From NCBI GenBank assembly GCA_902625215.1, contig CACOAO010000002.1, positions 62,001-126,000 of the forward strand: 64,000 nt of DNA. The letters run 5' to 3'. Under the pieces are notes generated by a model. That model was not told the origin of the DNA and made no database searches. It saw only the letters and a list, made by a program, of their open reading frames with translations. Position numbers and translations under genes: made by a program. This document shows positions 51,794 through 64,000 of the stretch, piece after piece (the first letter of the stretch is position 1; each line of letters starts with the position of its first letter). Origin of the DNA: an uncultured SAR116 cluster alpha proteobacterium. GTDB lineage: Bacteria > Pseudomonadota > Alphaproteobacteria > Puniceispirillales > Marisalimonadaceae.

Positions 51794-52555
51794 TCAAAAT
51801 ATACTTGTGTCAATCATATTTTTTCTTTTTCGAAGTTTTTCGTTCGAAGGAACAACATTATTCATTAATCCATTTTTTACTCTTCCCAATTTTACCATTA
51901 CCATTGAAGAAATTATATTTAAACAAATTTTTTGTGCTGTACCTGCTTTTAACCTAGTTGAACCAGCTATAACTTCTTCTTTTGTATTTAGTATGATTTT
52001 AACTTTACCAAATTCGAGTAAATTTCCTTTTGGATTATTACTTAAAACAATAGTAAGTGCTTTTTTAGCTTTAGCTTCTTCAGTCACTTTACAAGTAAAA
52101 GGAGTGTTACCACTAGCTGCTATGCCAATCACAACATCGTGATAGTTTATTAACTTTGATTTTACCGCCTCTTCAGCAGCATGTATGTCATCTTCAGAAT
52201 TTTCAACAGATTTCAATACCGCTTGATCTCCACCAGCTATTATGAAATCTAGACGATCATCAGGCCAGTTAAACGTTGGTAAAAGTTCAACCCCATCTTG
52301 TATGCCGATTCTACCTGACGTACCTGCGCCCACATAAATCAATCTTCCTCTTTTGCTTAACGTTAAATGTTCATATATAGAATTTACTGCTAACTCAATT
52401 GCTTCAGATGATTCATAAACAGCTAAAGCAGCTTTCTGATGTTCATTAATCATTAAATTGATACCATCTATTATCTTTAATTGATCAATTGGTTTACTAT
52501 TATTAAATGGAAGCTCAGTTTTTGGTAAATTATTTTTTATATATATTTCTTTCAT
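51794..52555 (-). CDS. murQ: N-acetylmuramic acid 6-phosphate etherase
   Basis: A 253-aa SIS-fold lyase that cleaves the lactyl ether of MurNAc-6-P to give GlcNAc-6-P in cell-wall recycling. The SIS motif VGAGTSGRIGIQDGVELLPTF (about residues 75-95) contains the first catalytic Glu, and VENSEDD near 113 holds the second. IAASGNTPFT near 148 and the substrate loop AGSTRLKAGTAQK near 198 are intact. At about 253 residues it is shorter than the usual 295-305; the sequence stops after PSNEKLRKR where other MurQ proteins continue for about 40 more residues. No continuation is visible in other frames downstream. It is divergent from rfbD. Confidence 0.9.
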   Translation of the reverse strand: MKEIYIKNNLPKTELPFNNSKPIDQLKIIDGINLMINEHQKAALAVYESSEAIELAVNSIYEHLTLSKRGRLIYVGAGTSGRIGIQDGVELLPTFNWPDDRLDFIIAGGDQAVLKSVENSEDDIHAAEEAVKSKLINYHDVVIGIAASGNTPFTCKVTEEAKAKKALTIVLSNNPKGNLLEFGKVKIILNTKEEVIAGSTRLKAGTAQKICLNIISSMVMVKLGRVKNGLMNNVVPSNEKLRKRKNMIDTSIF

Positions 52556-52701
52556 TTTATATTATACCTAATATTAAAATTGTATTGTACTTAAATAAAT
52601 GAATACCACTCAAACACTAGTTTATTCTATGCAATTAATTTATGTTAAGTGATAATTTGTAAAATTTAAATTTTTCCGTTTGATTAATGAAATTATAATC
52701 A

Positions 52702-53607
52702 ATGAATTATTTTAGCGAAATTTTAAATGAAAGAAACAAAATATTAATTTTTGGACTTAATGGCCAACTTGGTCAAACCTTTAATTATTTTTTTGAAAAA
52801 AGTGAAAACATTCTTCAGTTAAGTAGTAAAGATGTGAATTTTTTGGAGCCTAATTTAATCTCAAATGTAATAAATGATTTCAAACCAAATTATATAATTA
52901 ATACTTCAGCATATACTGACGTAAACATGGCAGAAAGCAATTCTTATGAAGCTTTTAAGGTTAATGGAGAAGCATTAAAATTTATGGCTGAAGCAGCAAA
53001 AAATAATAAATCACTTCTAATTCATTATTCTACTGATTATGTTTTCGATGGACAAAATAGTATAAGATACAAACCTACTGACATACCTAATCCAATTAAT
53101 ATTTATGGTAAAAGCAAACAAACTGGGGAACAAAACATATTAAAAAGTGGTTGTGATTTTGTTATCTTCCGAATTAGTTGGTTAGTATCTGAATTTGGTA
53201 ATAACTTTATTAAAACAATTATTTCTAAATTAGAAAATGATAAAGAGTTATTTATTGTGAATGATCAAATAGGAACTCCTATTTCATCTAAATTGGTAGC
53301 TAATATTACTGCTAAGACTATATTACTTAATACACATCAACACTCTAATCATATTTTTCATCTCAGTACAAAAGGCAAAGTTTCTTGGTATGATTTGGCC
53401 AAATATATATATAATTTTTTAGAAAAAAAATACAAAAATAGAAAAATTACTCCTATTTTGTCCAAAAAATACCCTACAAATGTAATCAGGCCACAAAATT
53501 CTCTTTTTAATCATTCTGATATTGAAAATTACTTAAATATGAAGTTACCATCTTGGCAAGAAGATACTAAACATATAATAAATAATTTATGTAAAAAACT
53601 TATTTGA
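52702..53607 (+). CDS. rfbD: dTDP-4-dehydrorhamnose reductase
   Basis: A 301-aa extended SDR reducing dTDP-4-keto-L-rhamnose to dTDP-L-rhamnose. The nucleotide motif FGLNGQLGQTF is near residue 18, NTSAYTDVNMAES near 73 with the family Thr/Asp, HYSTDYVFDG near 110 and the catalytic YGKSKQTGE near 134. It is the first of the rhamnose genes and is transcribed divergently from murQ. It is separated from rfbB and rfbA by the inverted rfbC. Confidence 0.93.
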   Translation: MNYFSEILNERNKILIFGLNGQLGQTFNYFFEKSENILQLSSKDVNFLEPNLISNVINDFKPNYIINTSAYTDVNMAESNSYEAFKVNGEALKFMAEAAKNNKSLLIHYSTDYVFDGQNSIRYKPTDIPNPINIYGKSKQTGEQNILKSGCDFVIFRISWLVSEFGNNFIKTIISKLENDKELFIVNDQIGTPISSKLVANITAKTILLNTHQHSNHIFHLSTKGKVSWYDLAKYIYNFLEKKYKNRKITPILSKKYPTNVIRPQNSLFNHSDIENYLNMKLPSWQEDTKHIINNLCKKLI

Positions 53608-53626
53608 GAATTAAAAGAATTATATA

Positions 53627-54193
53627 TTAATGTAAAAATAGGTTATTAATTTCGTAATTTTTTTTAAAAGTGAGTGCAAGTTTATCTTTAGATGATAGTA
53701 AAGGTTTTGTACAATTCCAATTTATAGAAAGATCCTTATCATTCCATATTATTGAACATTCAGAAAATTTGTTGTAGGGTTTATTAACCTTGTATGAAAT
53801 TTTGGTTGATTTACTCATTGATAAAAATCCATGAGCAAATCCTTCAGGTATGTAAATACTTTCATTATTTACATCATCAAGTTTATAACTTAGCCATTTA
53901 CCAAAATTTTTAGAACTTTTTCTGATATCAACTACTATATCTAGAATGCTTCCTTTAATTACATTTATTAACTTACTTTGTGCATGCTTCCCCTTTTGAA
54001 AATGGAGACCTCTTATTACATTTTTTTTTGACAAAGAAATGTTTTCTTGCATCACATCGAATGAAATACCAGTATTCTTTTTGAATTTTTTATAATTGAA
54101 GTTTTCAAAAAACTCTCCTCTTAAATCACTAAATTTTTTTGGCTTGAAAACTATAACTTCCGGGAAGACTAATTTTTTGTATTGCTTATCCAT
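53627..54193 (-). CDS. rfbC: dTDP-4-dehydrorhamnose 3,5-epimerase
   Basis: A 188-aa cupin-fold epimerase. The segment RGEFFENFNY near residue 24, QENISLSKKNVIRGLHFQKG near 48 with the catalytic His, and IYIPEGFAHGFLSM near 117 are family hallmarks. It converts dTDP-4-keto-6-deoxyglucose to the L-rhamno form. It is transcribed opposite to rfbD, rfbB and rfbA, which lie on either side. It therefore has its own promoter in the 96-bp gap shared with rfbB. Confidence 0.93.
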   Translation of the reverse strand: MDKQYKKLVFPEVIVFKPKKFSDLRGEFFENFNYKKFKKNTGISFDVMQENISLSKKNVIRGLHFQKGKHAQSKLINVIKGSILDIVVDIRKSSKNFGKWLSYKLDDVNNESIYIPEGFAHGFLSMSKSTKISYKVNKPYNKFSECSIIWNDKDLSINWNCTKPLLSSKDKLALTFKKNYEINNLFLH

Positions 54194-54289
54194 TAAAAAT
54201 TAGCCTCCTACTTTTCTAAAATTTTTGTTTTCATTTTAAAAATTTGTTTATACCTGTTATAAGAACATTAATAATTTAAGAGGTATATT

Positions 54290-55294
54290 TTGTCAAAAAA
54301 ATATAGTGTTTTAGTTACTGGTGGGGCGGGATTTATTGGCTCTGCATTATGCCAAAAAATAGTAAAAAAAAGCAATTTTAATTTGATAATTTTAGATAAA
54401 TTAACTTATGCAAGTAATTGGAATAAAATTAAAAATATTATTAATAATGAAGATGTATTTTTTTATAAAGGTTCTATTGGAAACCAAAAAATTTTAAACG
54501 AAATATTAATAAAATTTAAACCAATTTATATTTTTAATTTAGCCGCTGAGACACATGTAGATAATTCAATATTGAATCCATCAAAATTTATAAAAACAAA
54601 TATATTAGATACGCATAATTTTTTGAGGGTTCTTTTAAAGTATTATAAAAACCTTAACAAAAAAGAAGCTAATAAATTCAAATTTTTACAAATCTCAACT
54701 GATGAGGTTTACGGCGATATTGAATTAATAGAAAAACCTGTAAACGAATTAAAAAGCTATAATCCAAGTTCACCTTATTCAGCATCAAAGGCCGCTGGAG
54801 ATCATTTGGTAAAAGCATACTTTAGAACTTTTGATTTTCCAGGCTTAGTGTCAAATTGTTGTAATAATTTTGGCCCATTTCAACATCATGAAAAATTTAT
54901 TCCAGTAATTATTAAAAGTTTACTAGAGAATAAGAAAATACCTGTTTATGGAAATGGCCTACAAATTAGAGAATGGATTTATATTGATGATCATTGTAAT
55001 GCTTTATTGAAATTAATAGAATCAGGTAAAATAGGCGAAAGTTATAATATTGGAACTGGTTTTGAATTAACAAACTTCCAAATGATAGAAAGAATATTCA
55101 ATTGCATGAGGGATTTATCTTTAATAAAAAATGTTTCAATCAAAGAATGTATAAATTTCATTGAAGATAGACCAGGGCACGATAAGAGATATTCATTGAA
55201 TAGTTCAAAAATTAATAAACTTTGTGGCTGGAAACCATTAAAAGATTTTAATGAAGGATTGAAAGAAACAATTTATTCATTTGTTAAAAAATAA
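54290..55294 (+). CDS. rfbB: dTDP-glucose 4,6-dehydratase
   Basis: A 334-aa SDR dehydratase. GGAGFIGSALC near residue 11, NLAAETHVDNSI near 83, the catalytic STDEVYGDI near 137 (Thr-Asp-Glu), and YSASKAAGDH near 163 are all as in RmlB. The start codon is TTG, well supported by AAGAGG six bases upstream and by the family N-terminus; there is no alternative ATG in the first 80 codons. It is 33 bp upstream of rfbA in the same operon. Confidence 0.94.
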   Translation: MSKKYSVLVTGGAGFIGSALCQKIVKKSNFNLIILDKLTYASNWNKIKNIINNEDVFFYKGSIGNQKILNEILIKFKPIYIFNLAAETHVDNSILNPSKFIKTNILDTHNFLRVLLKYYKNLNKKEANKFKFLQISTDEVYGDIELIEKPVNELKSYNPSSPYSASKAAGDHLVKAYFRTFDFPGLVSNCCNNFGPFQHHEKFIPVIIKSLLENKKIPVYGNGLQIREWIYIDDHCNALLKLIESGKIGESYNIGTGFELTNFQMIERIFNCMRDLSLIKNVSIKECINFIEDRPGHDKRYSLNSSKINKLCGWKPLKDFNEGLKETIYSFVKK

Positions 55295-55327
55295 AATATA
55301 TACTTAACAATAATTTTGGAGTTTTTG

Positions 55328-56203
55328 ATGACTAAAGGGATAATACTAGCTGGAGGATCAGGTTCTAGATTATTTCCATTAACTTTTTCAGTTACAAAAC
55401 AATTATTACCTATCTACGACAAACCAATGATTTATTATCCATTATCGAATTTGCTAGAACTAGGTATTGACAATATTTTAATAATAAGTACAGATCATGA
55501 CAAACCACTTTTTGAAAAACTTCTTGGTGATGGGAGTGATTTAGGAGTAAAAATTTCATATAAAACCCAGAATAAGCCAAATGGTATAGCAGAAGGATTA
55601 ATAATTGGTGAAAAATTTATAGATGGTGATCCTTTTGTATTTATTTTAGGTGATAACTTGTTTGTAGGATCTTTTGCTAAAAAATTGTTTAAAAAAAGAT
55701 TATTTTGCAAAAGTGGAGCTACAATTTTTACATATAGCGTTAAAGACCCAGAAAGGTACGGCGTAATAACGTTAGACGATGATGACAACCCAGTAGAAAT
55801 CGTTGAAAAACCAAAATTTTCACTATCAAATCATGCTATTACAGGATTATACTTTTATGACGCTTCTGCTTGCGAAATTGCTAAAAATTTAATGCCTTCT
55901 AGTAGAAACGAACTAGAAATTACAGACGTTAATAAATTTTATTTAAAGAAGAATATGTTGTCAGTGATCCAATTAAATGATGAATTGACATGGCTAGATG
56001 CTGGCACTGTTAGTGCTTTATACGAAGCATCTAACTTTATTGCTGCATTAGAAATAAGAACTGGGAGTAAAATAGGTTGCATTGAAGAAATAGCCTATTC
56101 CAAAAACAAAATTAATCTTAAAGAATTGACATTAACTAGAAAAAAATATGGATCTAGCGAGTACGGTTTGTATTTACAAAAACTTATTAATTCTATTAGT
56201 TAA
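55328..56203 (+). CDS. rfbA: Glucose-1-phosphate thymidylyltransferase
   Basis: A nucleotidyltransferase of about 291 aa making dTDP-glucose. KGIILAGGSGSRLFPLT at the N-terminus is the nucleotide-binding loop with the catalytic Arg, PIYDKPMIYYPLS follows near 30, FILGDNLFVG near 108, and YGVITLDDD and VEKPK near 145-160. I use ATG 55328 because GGAG precedes it; a TTG at 55316 is in frame. Its stop shares TTAA with that of the convergent NlpC/P60 gene. Confidence 0.94.
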   Translation: MTKGIILAGGSGSRLFPLTFSVTKQLLPIYDKPMIYYPLSNLLELGIDNILIISTDHDKPLFEKLLGDGSDLGVKISYKTQNKPNGIAEGLIIGEKFIDGDPFVFILGDNLFVGSFAKKLFKKRLFCKSGATIFTYSVKDPERYGVITLDDDDNPVEIVEKPKFSLSNHAITGLYFYDASACEIAKNLMPSSRNELEITDVNKFYLKKNMLSVIQLNDELTWLDAGTVSALYEASNFIAALEIRTGSKIGCIEEIAYSKNKINLKELTLTRKKYGSSEYGLYLQKLINSIS

Positions 56204-56982
56204 ATATCTTCTCTAATTAATTGATAATTTTTACTAAGACGTTCCAAAGTTTTATTAATTTTTTCTACAACTACTCTACCATGATGAGCACTTGCATGTA
56301 TTAATTCGTTTTTATTCAAAATGATTGCTACATGACCATGCCAAAATATAATGTTACCTCGAAAAAAGTCTTTTTCGTGATAATTTTTAAGAACAATATA
56401 GTTTTTATTTTTCTTAAAATATTTGAGTTGATCTGAACTATCTCTTGGTATTTTTTCTCCATTAAATGCTTTGGATAATTGTAATAAGGAAGAGCAATCA
56501 AGCCCTATGCTATCCCTGCCACCCCAACGATATGGAACTGAAGTTAACTTTTCAGCATATTTAACCCAATTTGATTTAATATGTGAATCTTTTAAAATGT
56601 TTGATTTTAAAATATAACCATATTTAAAACGATTTTTGATAGGAAGTCTTATTTTTGCCCAATCATCTTTTATTTTGATCACATTTATTTTTGATCTCAT
56701 AGGTAAAAAAAAAATAAATTCTGACTTAACGTTAGGTTCTGCCATAACACAAGTTCTTATCGAAGATACTACATAATTTGTATTAGACACTAAATTTAGA
56801 GAGTTTGATTTTATCCAACCTTCATATTTATCTTCATATGAAATTCCATATGAGTACAAACCTTCTGTATAATAAATTTTAAATTTTTCACCATAAAGGC
56901 ATTCCGTATCAATAGTTTTATTTTTTTTATATTTTTTTAGAGGGGCAGACGGCAGGATAATTTGATGTAAATCAGCACTCAC
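56200..56982 (-). CDS. NlpC/P60 cysteine peptidase with SH3-like N-terminus (YkfC-like)
   Basis: A 260-aa protein with no signal peptide. Residues 1-130 form two SH3b-like beta segments, and residues 140-255 the NlpC/P60 domain. The catalytic Cys is in RWGGRDSIGLDCSSLLQ near 162 and the His in IFWHGHVAII near 215, with IHASAHHGRVV after. This architecture matches cytoplasmic gamma-D-glutamyl-meso-diaminopimelate peptidases (YkfC, dipeptidyl-peptidase VI) that trim recycled muropeptides. It overlaps the amidase gene by 4 bp and is probably co-transcribed with it and manC. Confidence 0.86.
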   Translation of the reverse strand: MSADLHQIILPSAPLKKYKKNKTIDTECLYGEKFKIYYTEGLYSYGISYEDKYEGWIKSNSLNLVSNTNYVVSSIRTCVMAEPNVKSEFIFFLPMRSKINVIKIKDDWAKIRLPIKNRFKYGYILKSNILKDSHIKSNWVKYAEKLTSVPYRWGGRDSIGLDCSSLLQLSKAFNGEKIPRDSSDQLKYFKKNKNYIVLKNYHEKDFFRGNIIFWHGHVAIILNKNELIHASAHHGRVVVEKINKTLERLSKNYQLIREDI

Positions 56983-57386
56983 TTTAAACCTCTTTCTTTA
57001 CACCATTTTTTTACATCAAAATTTGGACATGTTTTGTGAGTAACAATCGCATCGCAATGACCTATAATTTTTGCATGAGGGTAATTTTTTTTCCAATTTA
57101 TTAAAGTTGTTTCTAGTGCATTAAACTGTAATTCCGTAAAAGATTTTCTACCTATTAAACAAACACCAAGCGATATTTCATTTTTTCCAAAAACATGCGC
57201 CCCTTTCCAATATTCTGGCCTACCATTTTCAATAGTACCATTTCTAGTTATTACCTTATGATATCCAATTCCATCCCAACCAAATTCTAAGTGCATTTTA
57301 TGAATATCTATTGAGGTTAAATTTTTATTATCATCAGTATCAGAACAATGTATTACTAGATTTCTAATATTTTTTTTATATAACAT
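56979..57386 (-). CDS. Zinc-dependent N-acetylmuramoyl-L-alanine amidase (Amidase_2/AmpD-like)
   Basis: An amidase of about 135 aa with no signal peptide. The zinc ligands are recognisable as His in LVIHCSDTDD near residue 11, His in IGHCDAI near 107 and Cys in KTCPNFDVKKW near 118, and GYHKVITRNG supplies the neighbouring catalytic Tyr/His. Compact size resembles the T7-lysozyme subgroup, but no phage genes are nearby. It splits the lactyl-L-alanine bond of muropeptides, probably in the cytoplasm like AmpD. I prefer ATG 57386, just after the manC stop and preceded by AGAG, over the longer 57410 start. Confidence 0.85.
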   Translation of the reverse strand: MLYKKNIRNLVIHCSDTDDNKNLTSIDIHKMHLEFGWDGIGYHKVITRNGTIENGRPEYWKGAHVFGKNEISLGVCLIGRKSFTELQFNALETTLINWKKNYPHAKIIGHCDAIVTHKTCPNFDVKKWCKERGLK

Positions 57387-57387
57387 A

Positions 57388-58815
57388 CTATTCTCTATTA
57401 TAAGGGTCATCTAATCTGATAATATCATCTTCACCAAAATAATCACCTAATTGAATTTCAATAATTATTAGATCTTGATGATATGTATTTGCTAGATAAT
57501 GTTTGCTACCCCTTTTTACATCAGTTGACTCCCCAGCTTTTAATGAAAATTCTTTACCATCAATGTGAATATCAGCTATGCCTGAAACTATAAACCAATG
57601 TTCACTCCTCCTTTTATGATATTGCAATGATAATCTTTTGCCAGAAAATACAACTATTTTTTTTACTTTACAAAATTTACTATCAAACAAAATTTCGAAA
57701 CTTCCCCATGGTCTCTCTTCATAGAAAATATTTTCAACATAGGGTGAGGTCTTCTTTACAAGTGTTTCAACCAGTTTTTTTAAATTTTTGGAGTTATTTT
57801 TTTTTGTAATTAATGTTGTGTCTTGAGTATCAATAACTAATAAATTATCTACACCAACTGTTGCTATCATTCGATCACGTGAAGTAAGAACTTTATTCTG
57901 ACCATCTATTTCTACAGAATTAACATTTTTATTAAATTTACCATTTATTATTTCAAAATAACTATCCCAAGAGCCTATGTCATCCCAACTTGTATTAAAT
58001 AAGGAGCATAAAATATTATTTTCCTTTTCAATAACTGCTTTATCTATCGATATAGAGGGTATTTTCTTGAAAGCACATGTTTCCAAAGATATAGATTTTT
58101 CTAATATTTTTGGTTCAAGTGATTTAAGAACATCTTCACATGTAAGATAGAGATCTTTTGCATAAAATTTTATAGAACTAAGGGCCTTTTCTCTATTTAC
58201 TAAAAAAATGCCTGAGTTGAATAGAAATTTTTTTGAGAGGTAATACTTTTTTGCAACTGCCAAATTTGGTTTTTCAACAAATTTATCAATCTTGTAAATT
58301 ATGTTTTCATTATCCTTTTTTATAATCTTATTATAATCAATTTTTATATGACCATAATCTTCAGAAGGCTTTTTTGGTTTTACACCGAAAATCATCCAGT
58401 TATCTTTGTTAATTTGTTTTAAAGAAAAATTAATTATTTTTTTAAACTTACTTACATCTGGAATAAAGTGATCAGATGGCATTATAAGTAAAAAATCATT
58501 ATCTTTACTTAAGTAAGAACTAAAAAATATAGCAGCACCAGTATTTTTTGCAATTGGCTCAAAGATTAACTTTGCTTTAATATTTTTTTTTAATAATATA
58601 TCTTCAATTTTAAATTTATACTTTTTTGAAGAAATAATAATTGGTTCGCGACAGTTATTTAAATGTTTTAACCTATCCAATGTTAATTCAAAAAGAGATT
58701 TCCCATCAATAATTTTTAAAAATTGTTTAGGTAAGCTTTTTTTACTTAATGGCCATAACCTTGAACCAAAGCCACCACATAATATAATTGGCTGTAATAA
58801 AATTTCATTTTTCAT
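57388..58815 (-). CDS. manC: Mannose-1-phosphate guanylyltransferase / mannose-6-phosphate isomerase
   Basis: A 475-aa bifunctional type II enzyme. The guanylyltransferase domain starts PIILCGGFGSRLWPLSKK, with FVEKPNLAVAKKYY near residue 172 and NSGIFLV near 195. The C-terminal cupin PMI domain has the metal-binding QYHKRRSEHW near 405 and the preceding RPWGSFE near 372. It makes GDP-mannose, and fructose-6-P may be its entry. No manB, gmd or fcl gene is present in the window, so GDP-mannose may be used directly. It is the first gene of the minus-strand group with the amidase and peptidase genes. Confidence 0.93.
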   Translation of the reverse strand: MKNEILLQPIILCGGFGSRLWPLSKKSLPKQFLKIIDGKSLFELTLDRLKHLNNCREPIIISSKKYKFKIEDILLKKNIKAKLIFEPIAKNTGAAIFFSSYLSKDNDFLLIMPSDHFIPDVSKFKKIINFSLKQINKDNWMIFGVKPKKPSEDYGHIKIDYNKIIKKDNENIIYKIDKFVEKPNLAVAKKYYLSKKFLFNSGIFLVNREKALSSIKFYAKDLYLTCEDVLKSLEPKILEKSISLETCAFKKIPSISIDKAVIEKENNILCSLFNTSWDDIGSWDSYFEIINGKFNKNVNSVEIDGQNKVLTSRDRMIATVGVDNLLVIDTQDTTLITKKNNSKNLKKLVETLVKKTSPYVENIFYEERPWGSFEILFDSKFCKVKKIVVFSGKRLSLQYHKRRSEHWFIVSGIADIHIDGKEFSLKAGESTDVKRGSKHYLANTYHQDLIIIEIQLGDYFGEDDIIRLDDPYNRE

Positions 58816-58906
58816 ATGATAACTTATCAGTTTTTCGATTTATTTTAAATAATTTATATTAAAAATTCATTTGTTGAAAATATATATTTCATTATATAAT
58901 TTAATT

Positions 58907-58935
58907 TTGAATTAATTCTAAATATGTCTTACATT
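58907..58935 (+). promoter_or_regulatory. Candidate sigma-70-type promoter for anmK
   Basis: TTGAAT and TACATT lie exactly 17 bp apart, ending 25 bp before the anmK ATG in the 145-bp divergent region with manC. AT-rich DNA makes chance matches common, so this is tentative. Confidence 0.3.
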
Positions 58936-58960
58936 TATAACTTATAATTCACTATAAAAA

Positions 58961-60064
58961 ATGATGTCTTATCCTATAATTGGACTTATGTCCGGAACTA
59001 GCAATGATGGTATAGATGCTAGTCTTGTCTATACTAATGGTGAAAAAATTTCACGAACTAATTTCAAATCCATAACAGCATATTCAAAAAAAACAAAGGC
59101 TCTATTAGACATAGCTATTAAAAACCCCTTAGCATTTATAAATAATGAAAAAAATTATAAACAATTGTCGTACTTAATTACTCTTGAGCATGCCAAAGCA
59201 GTTAAAGAAATAATTAGAATATCAAAAGTTAAACCTTTTTTAGTAGGATTTCATGGACAAACTATTTTTCATAATCCTGTAAATAAAAAATCATACCAAT
59301 TAGGAGATGGTAAACTTTTGTCAAAATTATTAGAAACTAATGTCGTTTATAATTTTAGATCAAATGATCTAAAAAATGGAGGACAAGGAGCTCCAATTGC
59401 TCCTATTTATCATCGTGAAATTTTAAGAAATTTAAAATTTGAATTGCCTTCTACTATTGTAAATATTGGAGGTATAACAAATCTTACGTATTGGGATGGG
59501 AAGGAACTTATTGGTTTTGATACAGGGCCTGGAAACAATTTAATGGATTATTGTATGAAAAAAAAATTTAATAAAGATTTTGATGATAAAGGTAAGCAGG
59601 CGTCTAAAGGAAAAACTAATTTCAATTTGATCTCAAAATATTTAATGGATACTTATTTTACTAAAAAGCCTCCTAAATCACTTGAACGTCAAAATATATT
59701 TCAAAATAAATATCTAGAAGAAATACTTCTGCTTAATAAATATGATAGTTTATCTACATTATGTGCTTTGACATCCAAGACCTTGGAGCTTGGGTTTAAT
59801 CTTCTAAAGATCAAACCTCATAATACAATCATTGTTGGTGGAGGACAAAACAATAAACATTTAATCAAGCTTATCAAAAAAACACATATTTCTGGTAATA
59901 TATATACTGGCAATGAAATTGGTTTAGACAGCGATTATATAGAAGCAGAATTAATTGCCTATTTAGCTGCTAGAAAATTCTATCATTTGCCATCTTCATT
60001 CCCAAGTACTACTGGCGTTAAAGAAAATACTATTTTAGGTGATTTAATAAAACTTAAAGACTAA
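58961..60064 (+). CDS. anmK: Anhydro-N-acetylmuramic acid kinase
   Basis: A 367-aa ASKHA-fold kinase. It opens the 1,6-anhydro ring of anhMurNAc and phosphorylates it to MurNAc-6-P, the substrate of MurQ. The phosphate loop GLMSGTSNDGIDASLV is at residues 8-23, GFHGQTIFHNP near 91, NIGGITNLTYW near 167 followed by FDTGPGNNLMD near 184 with the catalytic Asp, and TIIVGGGQNNKHL near 290. Length matches E. coli AnmK (369 aa). It is divergent from manC and shares a CTAA double stop with the convergent PIG-L gene. Confidence 0.94.
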   Translation: MMSYPIIGLMSGTSNDGIDASLVYTNGEKISRTNFKSITAYSKKTKALLDIAIKNPLAFINNEKNYKQLSYLITLEHAKAVKEIIRISKVKPFLVGFHGQTIFHNPVNKKSYQLGDGKLLSKLLETNVVYNFRSNDLKNGGQGAPIAPIYHREILRNLKFELPSTIVNIGGITNLTYWDGKELIGFDTGPGNNLMDYCMKKKFNKDFDDKGKQASKGKTNFNLISKYLMDTYFTKKPPKSLERQNIFQNKYLEEILLLNKYDSLSTLCALTSKTLELGFNLLKIKPHNTIIVGGGQNNKHLIKLIKKTHISGNIYTGNEIGLDSDYIEAELIAYLAARKFYHLPSSFPSTTGVKENTILGDLIKLKD

Positions 60065-60750
60065 ACCATTGATTTTGATGATGACTTATAGAATGAATTA
60101 ATACCAGGAGATGAGGGTAATAATTCTCTTATATCAGCAAAAGGGAATGTTTTTTCATGCCTATATGCTTCAGCATAATTTTCTGTTGGTGCATTACATT
60201 GAGCAGATCTAAATCTATTTAATAATTTTGTAGCCTCCAAGAATTTACTTGGATTTTGGCTTTCATGTTTTAAAATCGCCCTAGCTTTCTGATCAAAATG
60301 AAGTGTAATGTCTATATAAAAATCTGGAATAAAGTTTATTCCCATTAGTGTGTCAGCGTATATAATAGGACATTTAAAACCAACAGCTTGTTTCATTATA
60401 TATGATAATGCTCTATGATCTGGATGATAATCTTCTGGGGCATGGGTGAGAATTATATCAGGTGATATACTTTGAGTATATTCTTTAATTTTACCAACTA
60501 CATCTCTAGAGACAATCAATTCACCATCAGGAAAATTGAAAAAAAAAGGATCTGCAATAAAATTTAGAGCTTTTTGTGCTTCGTTCTTTCGAACATTAGT
60601 TAGATTACTATACCCTAAAACATCTCCACTTGCTCCATCTGTAGCAATAGCTAAATGTATCTGATGACCTTGATCTTTATAACACAAAATTAGTCCTAAC
60701 ATAAAAATTTCTATGTCATCAGGATGTGCGCCTATAGCAAGTACTTTCAT
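60061..60750 (-). CDS. PIG-L (LmbE) family N-acetylglucosamine deacetylase
   Basis: A 229-aa zinc deacetylase. The metal/catalytic motif AIGAHPDDIE is at residues 5-14, ATDGASGDV near 35, and the second zinc His in THAPEDYHPDHRALS near 107. The family removes acetyl from GlcNAc-containing small molecules (for example GlcNAc-malate or GlcNAc-phosphatidylinositol). Position between anmK and the GH84-like gene suggests a free or phosphorylated amino sugar from cell-wall recycling as substrate. Bacillithiol-type BshB activity is an alternative, but no other bsh gene is seen. It is divergent from the GH84 gene, 45 bp apart. Confidence 0.85.
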   Translation of the reverse strand: MKVLAIGAHPDDIEIFMLGLILCYKDQGHQIHLAIATDGASGDVLGYSNLTNVRKNEAQKALNFIADPFFFNFPDGELIVSRDVVGKIKEYTQSISPDIILTHAPEDYHPDHRALSYIMKQAVGFKCPIIYADTLMGINFIPDFYIDITLHFDQKARAILKHESQNPSKFLEATKLLNRFRSAQCNAPTENYAEAYRHEKTFPFADIRELLPSSPGINSFYKSSSKSMV

Positions 60751-60795
60751 TAATTAGTTTCTTAATATAATAATATAATTTTAATAAGTTATAAT

Positions 60796-61932
60796 ATGAT
60801 GATGACAAAACTTACAATAAATGTAAATGGATATATAGAAGGTTTTTATGGCCGATTATTGAAATGGTCTGAAAGACATATTCTCCTTAAAAAATTAAGT
60901 TCTTGTAACTTTAATACCTATTTTTATTGCCCAAAAGAAGATTTGAAACACAGACTAAAATGGAGAGAGGCGTATACAAATAAATGGCTACTTGCTTTCA
61001 AGAACTTTTGTGAAACTGCAAAAACTCATAAAGTAAACATTATTATTGGTATTTCACCTGGGTTGGATTTTAATTTTAAAGAAAATAGTCCTGATTTTAA
61101 TACACTAGTTAAAAAGGCAAAAATATTAAAGTCAAAAGGAGCAACAAGTATTGTATTAATGTTTGACGATATTGAACCTTACGCAATTAATGGTAACGTA
61201 TCAGAGGGTCTTTTGCACGCTAAACTTGCAAATTATCTATCAAAAAAATTGAATGAAGAGATACTTGTTGTGCCGAGAGTATATTGCGACGAATTAATTG
61301 TAAATGGAAGTTCTTACTTGGATGATTTCAATAAAAATTTAAATAAGGATATAACAATATTTTACTGCGGGAAAAAAATCATATCAGATACTAATAAAAA
61401 AAGAGAATTAAATACAATTCGAAAAACAAGTTCTAATAAAATAATCTTTTGGGATAATTTGTATGCAAATGATTATTGCCCAAAAAAAATCTTTCTAGGT
61501 CCATACTTTGGTAGATCAAATTTTAATAATACAATGGTTAACTTAACTGGACTTATTAAAACAGATTTATTTATCCTTGATTTGATAAAACTAACTTTTG
61601 AGCACGAAAATATAGAAGCTGGTTGGATAAATGTCTTACAAAAATATAATATTCCAAAACAGTTTAACATAATTTGTAATTATTTTTTTCCAATTAACTC
61701 TAAACAAAAAAATAAAATTAGACTTAACAGTTATCAACAAGAAACTGAAGCACTTGATTTTTTACTGTGGAAGTGGAAAATTCCTCTTTCTAGAGAATGG
61801 TATCAGTATATGTTAATATTAAAACAAGATTTACAACTTTTAAATGAAAATTTAAAAGATAATCGTATAGAAAAAATCTTTCCAGCACCCTTGAAAGAAG
61901 CTTTATTCAAATTGAAATGGAGAAACAAATGA
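60796..61932 (+). CDS. GH84-like beta-N-acetylglucosaminidase, cytoplasmic
   Basis: A 378-aa protein matching the catalytic barrel of glycoside hydrolase family 84 (O-GlcNAcase/hyaluronidase-like). GYIEGFYGRLLKWSER near residue 11, FNTYFYCPKEDLKHRLKWREAY near 37-58, and GISPGLDF near 80 are family landmarks. The adjacent catalytic aspartates appear in VLMFDDIEP near 122, and FWDNLYANDY near 220 corresponds to the sugar-binding WDN. There is no signal peptide and no extra domain. GH84 enzymes hydrolyse terminal beta-GlcNAc by substrate-assisted catalysis. Between anmK and murQ-type genes, removal of GlcNAc from imported GlcNAc-anhMurNAc is a reasonable hypothesis. The TGA overlaps the mmsB ATG. 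Confidence 0.82.
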   Translation: MMMTKLTINVNGYIEGFYGRLLKWSERHILLKKLSSCNFNTYFYCPKEDLKHRLKWREAYTNKWLLAFKNFCETAKTHKVNIIIGISPGLDFNFKENSPDFNTLVKKAKILKSKGATSIVLMFDDIEPYAINGNVSEGLLHAKLANYLSKKLNEEILVVPRVYCDELIVNGSSYLDDFNKNLNKDITIFYCGKKIISDTNKKRELNTIRKTSSNKIIFWDNLYANDYCPKKIFLGPYFGRSNFNNTMVNLTGLIKTDLFILDLIKLTFEHENIEAGWINVLQKYNIPKQFNIICNYFFPINSKQKNKIRLNSYQQETEALDFLLWKWKIPLSREWYQYMLILKQDLQLLNENLKDNRIEKIFPAPLKEALFKLKWRNK

Positions 61933-62801
61933 AAAAAATTGGTTTTATTGGATTAGGAAATATGGGTTTTTTTATGTCAAAAAATCTCTCTACTAATAAT
62001 TACATTGTAAATGGATATGACGTTAACCAAGAAGTATTTGTAGAATTAAAAGCTTATGGCGTTAATCAAAAATCATCTATTGAGGAAGTTAGTCAAGAAA
62101 ATGAGATTATAATAACCATGCTTCCAAATGGAAAAATAGTTGAGGAAGTATGGACATTATTAATGAAAGATATAAAACCAAAAACATTAATTGTTGATTG
62201 TTCTACGATTGACATTGAAACAACAAAAAAATTACATAACTTAGCAGAGGGTAAAAAAATCCTATCATTAGACGCTCCTGTTTCAGGGGGTACTATTGGG
62301 GCTAATAATGGCTCTTTAACTTTTATGGTTGGAGGTAAAGTTGAAGCATACAAAAAAATGTTGCCACTATTTGAAATCATGGGAAAAAAGTCAATTTTAT
62401 GTGGTGAAGCTGGATTAGGACAAGCCACTAAAATGTGTAATAATTTGTTGTTAGCAATAACTATGTCTGGTTTAGGTGAAGCAATCAAATTAGCAAATTC
62501 ACAACATTTAGATATGAATAAATTCTATGATGTTTTATCAACTTCAACAGGATCTTGTTGGGCTTTAAACAATTACTCACCAATAAAAGGAGTTGGACCT
62601 AACAGTCCTGCAGATAATGATTTTAAGCCAGGCTTTTCTTCTCAACTTATGTTTAAAGATTTAACTTTAGCTTTATCTGCTGCTGTTGATGCAAATATTA
62701 ATTTAGAAATCGGAAAAAAAGTTTTAACTAATTATGAAGAATTAGTAAATAAAAATAAAGGAAATTTAGATTTTTCAAGCATAGTAAATTTAGAAAAATA
62801 A
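61929..62801 (+). CDS. mmsB: 3-hydroxyisobutyrate dehydrogenase
   Basis: A beta-hydroxyacid dehydrogenase of about 290 aa. The NAD motif FIGLGNMGFFMSKNL is at residues 5-19, substrate-binding DAPVSGGTIGANNGSLTFM near 117, and the catalytic Lys in GLGQATKMCNNLLL near 163. It oxidises 3-hydroxyisobutyrate to methylmalonate semialdehyde in valine degradation, following the HIBCH-type hydrolase at 12.3-13.3 kb. I choose ATG 61929, preceded by GGAG, forming an ATGA overlap with the GH84 stop; the ATG at 61917 is in frame but itself contains this GGAG. Tartronate-semialdehyde reductase is a less likely alternative. Confidence 0.9.
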   Translation: MKKIGFIGLGNMGFFMSKNLSTNNYIVNGYDVNQEVFVELKAYGVNQKSSIEEVSQENEIIITMLPNGKIVEEVWTLLMKDIKPKTLIVDCSTIDIETTKKLHNLAEGKKILSLDAPVSGGTIGANNGSLTFMVGGKVEAYKKMLPLFEIMGKKSILCGEAGLGQATKMCNNLLLAITMSGLGEAIKLANSQHLDMNKFYDVLSTSTGSCWALNNYSPIKGVGPNSPADNDFKPGFSSQLMFKDLTLALSAAVDANINLEIGKKVLTNYEELVNKNKGNLDFSSIVNLEK

Positions 62802-62989: not shown

Positions 62990-64000
62990 TTATAATAATG
63001 GAGCTATTACCAAACTAACAATAGCCATTACATTAATTAAAATATTCATTGATGGTCCAGAAGTGTCTTTTAATGGATCTCCAACTGTGTCTCCTACAAC
63101 AGCTGCTTTATGAATCTCAGAACCTTTACCACCAAAATTTCCTTTTTCAACAAACTTCTTTGCATTATCCCAAGCACCACCGGCATTGGACATCATTAAA
63201 GCCATCATTACACAACATATAAGTGCACCACCTAACATTCCCCCTAATGCTTTTGGACCTAATAAAAATCCAACTACGACAGGTGATAGTACCGCTAAAG
63301 CTCCAGGTAAAATCATTTTTCGCAGCGCAGCTCTTGTTGCAATGTCTACACATCTGGCAGTATCAGGCTTTGCTTTGCCTTCTAACAAGCCTGGAATTTC
63401 TTTGAATTGTCTTCTAATTTCTTTAATCATATCAAAAGCAGCATCCCCTACTGCGGTCATCGTCAATGAACTAACAATAAATGGAAAAATCCCACCTAAA
63501 AACATTCCACATAAAACTAAGGGATCATTAATAGCTAAAACGAAAGTTGAATCTTTTGCTGAAATTTTCTCAATATAGGCACTTATTAGGGCTAATGCAG
63601 CTAAAGCTGCTGCACTTATAGCAAACCCCTTACCAATGGCTGCTGTTGTGTTCCCAACCTCGTCAAGTGAGTCTGTAATATCTCTAGTTTCCTTACCCAT
63701 TTCAGACATTTCCGCAATACCACCGGCATTATCAGCAACTGGACCATATGCATCTATAGCCATTGTAATACCAACAGTACTTAACATACCTACAGCAGCA
63801 ATACCTACACCATAAAGACCTGCATAAATATTGGATATAAAAATAATACAAACAATTGTTAAAACAGGTATAGCGACGGATTGCATGCCTGTAGCCAAAC
63901 CAGAAATTAGGACAGTTGCTGAACCTGTTTCTCCATCTTTAGCAATTTTTTTAACAGGGCTTCCACCTGTATAATATTCAGTTACTAACCCTACTATAAT
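62990..64000 (-). CDS. hppA: Membrane-bound pyrophosphatase (HppA), C-terminal part
   Basis: The frame runs off the right window edge, so the N-terminal half is missing; about 336 residues remain. At the edge the coded segment reads [14 protein letters not shown], followed by [27 protein letters not shown], the cofactor region [13 protein letters not shown] and the C-terminal catalytic loop [11 protein letters not shown]. It is a polytopic ion pump driven by PPi hydrolysis. The residues after GNTT are Ala-Ala, with Gly-Lys following, the pattern of K+-dependent enzymes, where K+-independent pumps have Lys. H+ or Na+ transport cannot be decided from this part. Confidence 0.92.

Follow-up and report, generated by a model that had tools for sequence, protein, structure and literature searches.

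A SAR116 peptidoglycan-recycling locus in which a GH84 glycosidase probably does the work of NagZ and a PIG-L deacetylase most likely that of NagA

Results

The window analyzed here (the whole 64,000-nucleotide stretch, from a bacterium of the SAR116 cluster, i.e., the order Puniceispirillales of the Alphaproteobacteria) carries near one end a set of genes that probably serves peptidoglycan recycling, with a GH84 glycosidase at the step usually assigned to the GH3 enzyme NagZ. An earlier note on this DNA had placed murQ, an NlpC/P60 peptidase, an amidase, anmK, a PIG-L deacetylase and the GH84 gene within 10 kb, and all six are open frames at the expected positions, with Pfam matches above cut-off. 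The murQ gene (51794..52555, minus strand; GKRP_SIS_N and SIS domains) encodes a short form, of 253 residues, of N-acetylmuramic acid (MurNAc)-6-phosphate etherase; its product scores 273.5 bits against NCBIfam PRK05441 (cut-off 168) and lies below the cut-off of TIGR00274 (210.4 versus 302). An SH3 plus NlpC/P60 peptidase (56200..56982, minus strand; PF00877, 51.4 bits; PF18348, 36.1 bits) would remove L-Ala-D-Glu in the manner of YkfC. The adjoining amidase (56979..57410, minus strand; PF01510, 47.9 bits) had been called AmpD-like. Its membership of the Amidase_2 family holds, but its closest solved structure is T7 lysozyme (4.5e-22) and it scores 22 bits against an AmpD model with a cut-off of 143; we describe it as T7-lysozyme-like, and predict that it performs the AmpD-type step.

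The remaining three genes lie together. The anmK gene (58961..60064, plus strand; PF03702, 240 bits) encodes anhydro-N-acetylmuramic acid (anhMurNAc) kinase; between it and the GH84 gene is the PIG-L family deacetylase (60061..60750, minus strand; PF02585, 96.6 bits), and the GH84 gene itself (60796..61932, plus strand) encodes a 378-residue protein with a NAGidase match (PF07555) of 175.4 bits, against a cut-off of 25. The latter protein matches only NAGidase and not GH3, and is thus not a member of the NagZ family. A simple hydrophobicity sum revealed no signal-like N-terminus in any of the six proteins, in agreement with the claim that all lack signal peptides; in the PIG-L protein the sole hydrophobic N-terminal stretch sits just after the AHPDD motif beginning at residue 8.

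When the contig beyond the window was examined for a further 14 kb, the locus was found to continue for 3 kb past the window end, with a pyrophosphatase gene, then a YkuD gene, then a divergent gene for an AmpG-family permease of the MFS type. The permease (456 residues; C2:127707-129077, equivalent to 65707-67077 in window numbering, plus strand) passes TIGR00901 (364 bits, cut-off 350) and matches solved muropeptide transporters (1.9e-45). The AmpG that the earlier note had proposed to look for is therefore encoded at the same locus, so that an importer belongs to it, and AnmK, MurQ and an AmpG-type permease (the last outside the window), all components of the AmpG-AmpD-AnmK-MurQ recycling pathway, are present. 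The YkuD protein (178 residues; C2:127077-127613, equivalent to 65077-65613, minus strand) had no solved relative at E 0.1. It may be a cytoplasmic LD-carboxypeptidase acting in place of LdcA. Elsewhere, too, ampG is adjoined by a short YkuD protein that lacks a signal peptide (locus L081, 3077-3613, and relatives).

The GH84 protein consists of an O-GlcNAcase (OGA)-like barrel (about residues 1-252), carrying the pair Asp124-Asp125, followed by C-terminal helices. An AlphaFold2 model (pLDDT 91.4, pTM 0.91) displays the same barrel and C-terminal helical part, and its top solved matches in Foldseek were OgOGA (PDB 2xsa/7khs; E 1.8e-22, TM 0.79) and human OGA (E 2.9e-22, TM 0.77; both TM values by query). 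In an alignment of 65 GH84 sequences D124, D125, K47, Y163, W219, N221, D226 and N249 were invariant, and we take these to be the catalytic and pocket residues from what is known of the family; the Asp-Asp pair aligns with FDDID of human OGA, and occurs in 80/80 relatives (the best 80 of 305 found in the genome collection). By hydrophobicity only, and with starts picked by a script, neither the window protein nor any of the 80 relatives has a signal-like N-terminus, the highest mean over 12 residues among the relatives being 1.14, compared with 2.0-2.3 in two lipoprotein-like GH3 proteins. The enzyme is accordingly predicted to be cytoplasmic.

The window protein is closest to other SAR116 sequences (66% at most). 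In a tree of 87 rows, GH84 of the recycling type was split from six other alphaproteobacterial GH84 proteins by a long, fully supported branch. Sequences from the gammaproteobacterial family Granulosicoccaceae, joined 28 further rows (from Puniceispirillum and additional alphaproteobacterial metagenome-assembled genomes, MAGs) in a single supported group of 47, the internal branching of which the tree does not settle. A single origin of the recycling-type GH84, with transfer between classes, is possible on this evidence.

The earlier note had seen no GH3 NagZ in the window, and this held more widely. There was no match to GH3 (PF00933) in the host genome (2.0 Mb in 66 contigs, 88.8% complete), and, of the 136 order genomes, just 2 gave a match, as did none of the 43 that were at least 90% complete with at most 5% contamination (henceforth, good genomes). 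These 43 include four single-contig genomes (G077, G082, G124 and G135). For comparison, 367 genomes were drawn from the class, of which 4 proved to lie inside the order and 363 outside; 304 of the 363 had GH3, none of the 304 being in the order. AnmK was present in 85/136 genomes of the order and 281/363 outside it, and among these AnmK-positive genomes GH3 was missing from 83/85 and 17/281, respectively (from tables sorted by hand and recounted). The other common exo-hexosaminidase family, GH20, was found in 0/36 genomes searched.

GH84 displayed the opposite distribution, with PF07555 matches in 85/136 genomes of the order versus 6/363 outside. All six of the latter have GH3, and three have AnmK, its listed place being on a different contig from GH84. 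Within the order, 80 genomes had both GH84 and AnmK, 5 had GH84 alone, 5 AnmK alone and 46 neither; the corresponding figures for the 43 good genomes were 30, 1, 1 and 11 (Fisher 2.4e-8, uncorrected for kinship). The expectation that the GH84-anmK adjacency would recur was borne out, because the two genes shared a contig in 73 of the 80 genomes with both (different contigs in 7), at a median gap of 786 bp, with 61 pairs no more than 1 kb apart and a maximum of 6.6 kb. In one genome (G030, contig C25) GH84 and AnmK are both fragmented, some pieces having stop codons, which fits the two genes decaying together.

Open reading frames were clustered in 21 neighborhoods, i.e., 19 from the order with GH84, one locus with AnmK only, and the window. 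Clusters, whose identities were taken from one to three members each, were AnmK (21 loci), GH84 (20), the AmpG family (17), NlpC/P60 (14), PIG-L (14), YkuD (13), M19 dipeptidase (10) and a separate Amidase_2 protein (8). The MurQ cluster had 15 members, among which the window rmlD was wrongly included, and the MurQ hidden Markov model (HMM) was built from 13 proteins. With our own HMMs we then scored the loci of the 80 GH84 relatives. In the 61 not labelled Granulosicoccaceae or Granulosicoccus we found AnmK in 54, AmpG in 51, YkuD in 49, PIG-L in 48, MurQ in 44, NlpC in 35, the amidase in 34 and M19 in 16. A recycling gene lay within 600 bp of GH84 in 57 of these 61 loci and within 2.5 kb in 60; in the remaining one (L146) GH84 begins 300 bp from the contig start.

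In the 19 Granulosicoccaceae loci the same HMMs detected the amidase in 15, AmpG in 14, NlpC in 14, AnmK in 8, MurQ in 5 and M19 in 2; PIG-L and YkuD proteins of this type were not detected. A recycling gene was within 600 bp of GH84 in 19/19, and AnmK or AmpG within 310 bp in 16/19. That the grouping is met repeatedly in the order, and again in another class, takes it beyond chance.

At one locus (L140, 7926-9983) GH84 and an M19 dipeptidase occupy one 685-residue frame, as judged by Pfam, and this fusion ties GH84 to peptide breakdown. A 692-residue frame is also present at GH84 in G125 (C15, about 27069), where the frame length alone suggests an M19 fusion. In L061 (711-1988), Amidase_2, SH3 and NlpC/P60 are fused in one 425-residue protein. 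Two frames of L072 (204 and 255 residues) had no Pfam match. In relatives a HAD gene lies close to the amidase; it was considered as MupP and rejected (45 bits, cut-off 359).

The PIG-L deacetylase was compared with NagA in 36 genomes searched for TIGR00221 and PF02585, 34 of which carry GH84 and/or AnmK. MurQ yields N-acetylglucosamine (GlcNAc)-6-phosphate, and the reaction of NagA is the deacetylation of this product. In the host genome the best match to NagA reached 21.1 bits, with a cut-off of 225.65. Among the 34 genomes, PIG-L adjoined anmK or GH84 in 23 and NagA was above cut-off in 7; none had both, and 4 had neither (Fisher 6e-5, uncorrected for kinship). The two alternate even within a genus, PIG-L being present in G063 and NagA in G066, G067 and G068 of genus g6, with an apparent swap in genus g8 as well (PIG-L in G074, locus L125, where NagA was not searched; NagA in G072). 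In G114, G117 and G119, NagA is 0.3-0.5 kb from anmK.

Three findings complicate this pattern. The same three genomes with NagA carry another, far larger PIG-L frame (809-859 residues) elsewhere; a second NagA-like match lies slightly below cut-off in G114 and G117; and 17 further genomes have weak NagA matches only (33 bits or less), which we take to be other amidohydrolases. The closest solved relatives of the PIG-L protein are diacetylchitobiose deacetylases. The bacillithiol enzyme BshB1 was rejected as its identity (TIGR04001, 81 bits, cut-off 182.5).

Discussion

We propose that this is a peptidoglycan-recycling locus of the SAR116 group in which GH84 does the job of GH3 NagZ and PIG-L most likely that of NagA, and we put the probability of this reading at about 0.87. 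The earlier note had suggested GH84 in the NagZ role. The genomic comparison favors that suggestion, in that we found neither a clear nagZ elsewhere in the genome nor an unconserved neighborhood. Although not a NagZ, the GH84 protein may work like one.

We infer the substrates and the order of steps from the gene content, the lack of GH3 and GH20 matches, the kept linkage, the lack of signal peptides, the Asp-Asp pair and the predicted fold. Anhydro-muropeptides would be imported by the AmpG-family permease, encoded 3.8 kb past GH84. Once they are in the cytoplasm, their terminal D-amino acid may be trimmed off by the YkuD protein. The Amidase_2 enzyme would then take off the peptide, to be degraded by the SH3-NlpC/P60 enzyme, with the M19 dipeptidase in some relatives. 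With Asp124 and Asp125, and by substrate-assisted catalysis, GH84 would cleave the β-1,4 linkage in GlcNAc-anhMurNAc; AnmK and MurQ would turn anhMurNAc into GlcNAc-6-phosphate; and PIG-L would most likely deacetylate this to GlcN-6-phosphate in place of NagA.

According to PMC9790009, NagZ is a cytoplasmic enzyme that acts between AmpG/AmpD and AnmK and splits GlcNAc from anhMurNAc, and PMC13046382 lists NagZ in Caulobacter. The pathway position proposed for GH84 is that of GH3 NagZ in E. coli, Caulobacter and Agrobacterium, whereas the SAR116 enzyme belongs to a different family with different catalytic residues, and GH3 was not found alongside it. With OgOGA and human OGA, an intracellular enzyme, it shares the catalytic barrel and the Asp-Asp pair, and these are its best fold matches, although at about 20-22% identity in the best full-length Foldseek alignments. 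The SAR116 protein is shorter (378 residues) and is encoded inside a recycling locus, its substrate presumably being the muropeptide disaccharide. NagJ of Clostridium perfringens and BT_4395, both secreted, are of the same GH84 catalytic family; their chains have about 580-740 residues and the match begins near residue 130-150, so that the SAR116 protein lacks the part that precedes the barrel in those enzymes.

Several observations weigh against our interpretation. The closest solved homologues of the enzyme are O-GlcNAcases and other GH84 proteins, and we know of no solved GH84 homologue that acts on muropeptides. Outside the order, none of the 17 AnmK-positive genomes without GH3 has GH84, so that lack of NagZ alone does not demand GH84, and other solutions or gaps exist there. 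Within the order, GH84 is missing from G097 (95% complete, 7% contamination), where a NagZ-like fragment adjoins a ScpA-like frame, and G120 has GH84 together with a GH3 fragment that lacks the NagZ motif. Most of the genomes are drafts or come from single cells; absence from any one of them, such as the 88.8% complete host genome, is weak evidence alone; and the Fisher values overstate the associations, because the counts are phylogenetically dependent. With respect to PIG-L, the four genomes with neither enzyme (G124, G132, G134 and G135) lack both NagA and a PIG-L gene at the cluster.

A further point of this kind comes from the Granulosicoccaceae, where GH3 was searched for in 22 genomes (19 of this family plus 3 other MAGs) and matched in 8, all among the 19. 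Seven GH3 proteins were read; outside this number are the weak fragment of G515 and another weak match, the second one of G508. The NagZ motif KHFPGHG lies behind a lipoprotein-like N-terminus in five and a signal-like one in one (L168), these six being from L163-L168; because of these N-termini, the motif-bearing proteins read look exported. The seventh (L162) is an 807-residue frame with no KHFPGHG motif and no visible signal. We therefore rejected the Granulosicoccaceae GH3 proteins that were read as cytoplasmic NagZ, and members of the family with GH84 also seem to lack a cytoplasmic NagZ, as far as N-termini can indicate in MAGs of unstated completeness from a group sampled non-systematically.

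Could GH84 instead be a cytoplasmic O-GlcNAcase that acts on the cell's own glycoproteins and adjoins anmK by accident? Human O-GlcNAcase and OgOGA are indeed its closest solved relatives in both sequence and fold, and OGT-family proteins (PF13844) occur in 5/36 genomes, one of which (G012) has no cluster; in the other four (G015, G046, G094 and G124), a role in O-GlcNAc metabolism is possible, to the detriment of our interpretation. However, no OGT-family match turned up in the host genome or in 30 of the 34 searched genomes with a cluster, on which ground we rejected O-GlcNAc cycling as the main explanation; the linkage of GH84 to recycling genes is kept in two classes, and GH84 and AnmK are mostly co-present or co-absent, making this explanation very improbable. 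Improbable too, if less so, is the degradation by GH84 of imported chito-oligosaccharides or other GlcNAc glycans, with GlcNAc-anhMurNAc handled by an unrecognized enzyme or left unsplit. Marine bacteria do encounter chitin, as is generally known, and the neighboring PIG-L is closest to diacetylchitobiose deacetylase; yet the recurrent neighbors of GH84 are AmpG, the amidase, NlpC/P60, AnmK and MurQ. Moreover, AnmK requires free anhMurNAc, so that a splitting step is needed, whereas GH3 and GH20 are rare or absent, as described above. Finally, NagZ might be present but overlooked in draft genomes, GH84 being an additional enzyme. The incompleteness of many genomes and the GH3 matches in G097 and G120 speak for this, but the good genomes, including the four single-contig ones, which carry GH84, gave no GH3 match in a search identical to that which succeeded in most genomes outside the order, and we give this explanation hardly any credence.

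The assignment of PIG-L requires more caution. PIG-L and NagA are mutually exclusive at these clusters, from which it follows that PIG-L probably replaces NagA, and since the MurQ product is the NagA substrate, the simplest reading is that PIG-L deacetylates GlcNAc-6-phosphate. The proposed pathway position is thus that of NagA, although the PIG-L/LmbE zinc deacetylases are unrelated to the amidohydrolases to which NagA belongs. It is less likely, but still a serious possibility, that PIG-L takes the acetyl group from free GlcNAc, from GlcNAc-anhMurNAc or from a thiol precursor, because relatives in the family act on GlcNAc-malate and diacetylchitobiose. Set against this are the swaps with NagA, including those within g6 and apparently g8. 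In addition, GH84 catalysis needs the acetyl group of the substrate, so that deacetylation of GlcNAc-anhMurNAc ahead of GH84 would block it.

Taking the groups together, we lean slightly towards a wider view, in which enzymes of unrelated families now perform two sugar steps of recycling in the SAR116 order (GH84 instead of NagZ, PIG-L instead of NagA), a GH84 of this kind also performs the NagZ step in Granulosicoccaceae, so that an OGA-like muropeptide glucosaminidase would operate in two classes, and YkuD is maybe a third replacement, for LdcA. What is new is a known pathway with one replaced enzyme, probably two. PMC9790009 offers the YejBEF-YepA transporter and LdcA analogues as precedents for replaced recycling parts; as described there, they substitute for the transporter or the LD-carboxypeptidase and not for NagZ or NagA. 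In the literature accessible to us, a scope outside which most subscription papers fall, we found no description of GH84 in peptidoglycan recycling, of GH84 with AnmK, of SAR116 recycling, of Granulosicoccus GH84, or of PIG-L as a GlcNAc-6-phosphate deacetylase. PMC3920638 discusses inhibitor selectivity between NagZ and O-GlcNAcase, and PMC3551598 was the match for family 84, bacterial O-GlcNAcase and muropeptide combined.

NagZ is regarded as the standard enzyme for the GlcNAc-anhMurNAc step, and has been studied as an inhibitor target. If our interpretation is correct, an order of ocean bacteria and a gammaproteobacterial family rely here on a member of the O-GlcNAcase family, bacterial cytoplasmic GH84 proteins gain a concrete role in physiology along with a natural substrate that can be tested, and the pathway swaps enzymes singly with its chemistry unchanged. 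A specific hypothesis would likewise be at hand for a PIG-L deacetylase without a known substrate.

Other Features of the Locus

Downstream of GH84 lies a 3-hydroxyisobutyrate-dehydrogenase-type (HIBADH-type) dehydrogenase (61917..62801, plus strand), a conserved neighbor in related genomes. The membrane pyrophosphatase (62990..64000, minus strand, continuing beyond the window end) is another, located between GH84 and ykuD/ampG. Neither is given a role in the pathway.

The recycling set is interleaved with sugar-nucleotide genes. These are a GMP/PMI gene (57388-58815) and four rml-type genes, i.e., rmlD (52702-53607), rmlC (53627-54193), rmlB (54290-55294) and rmlA (55316-56203), whose dTDP-rhamnose names we presume from reading the sequence. 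In the window the rml-type and GMP/PMI genes separate murQ from anmK; in 44/47 of the named loci where the two occur together, they are no more than 600 bp apart.

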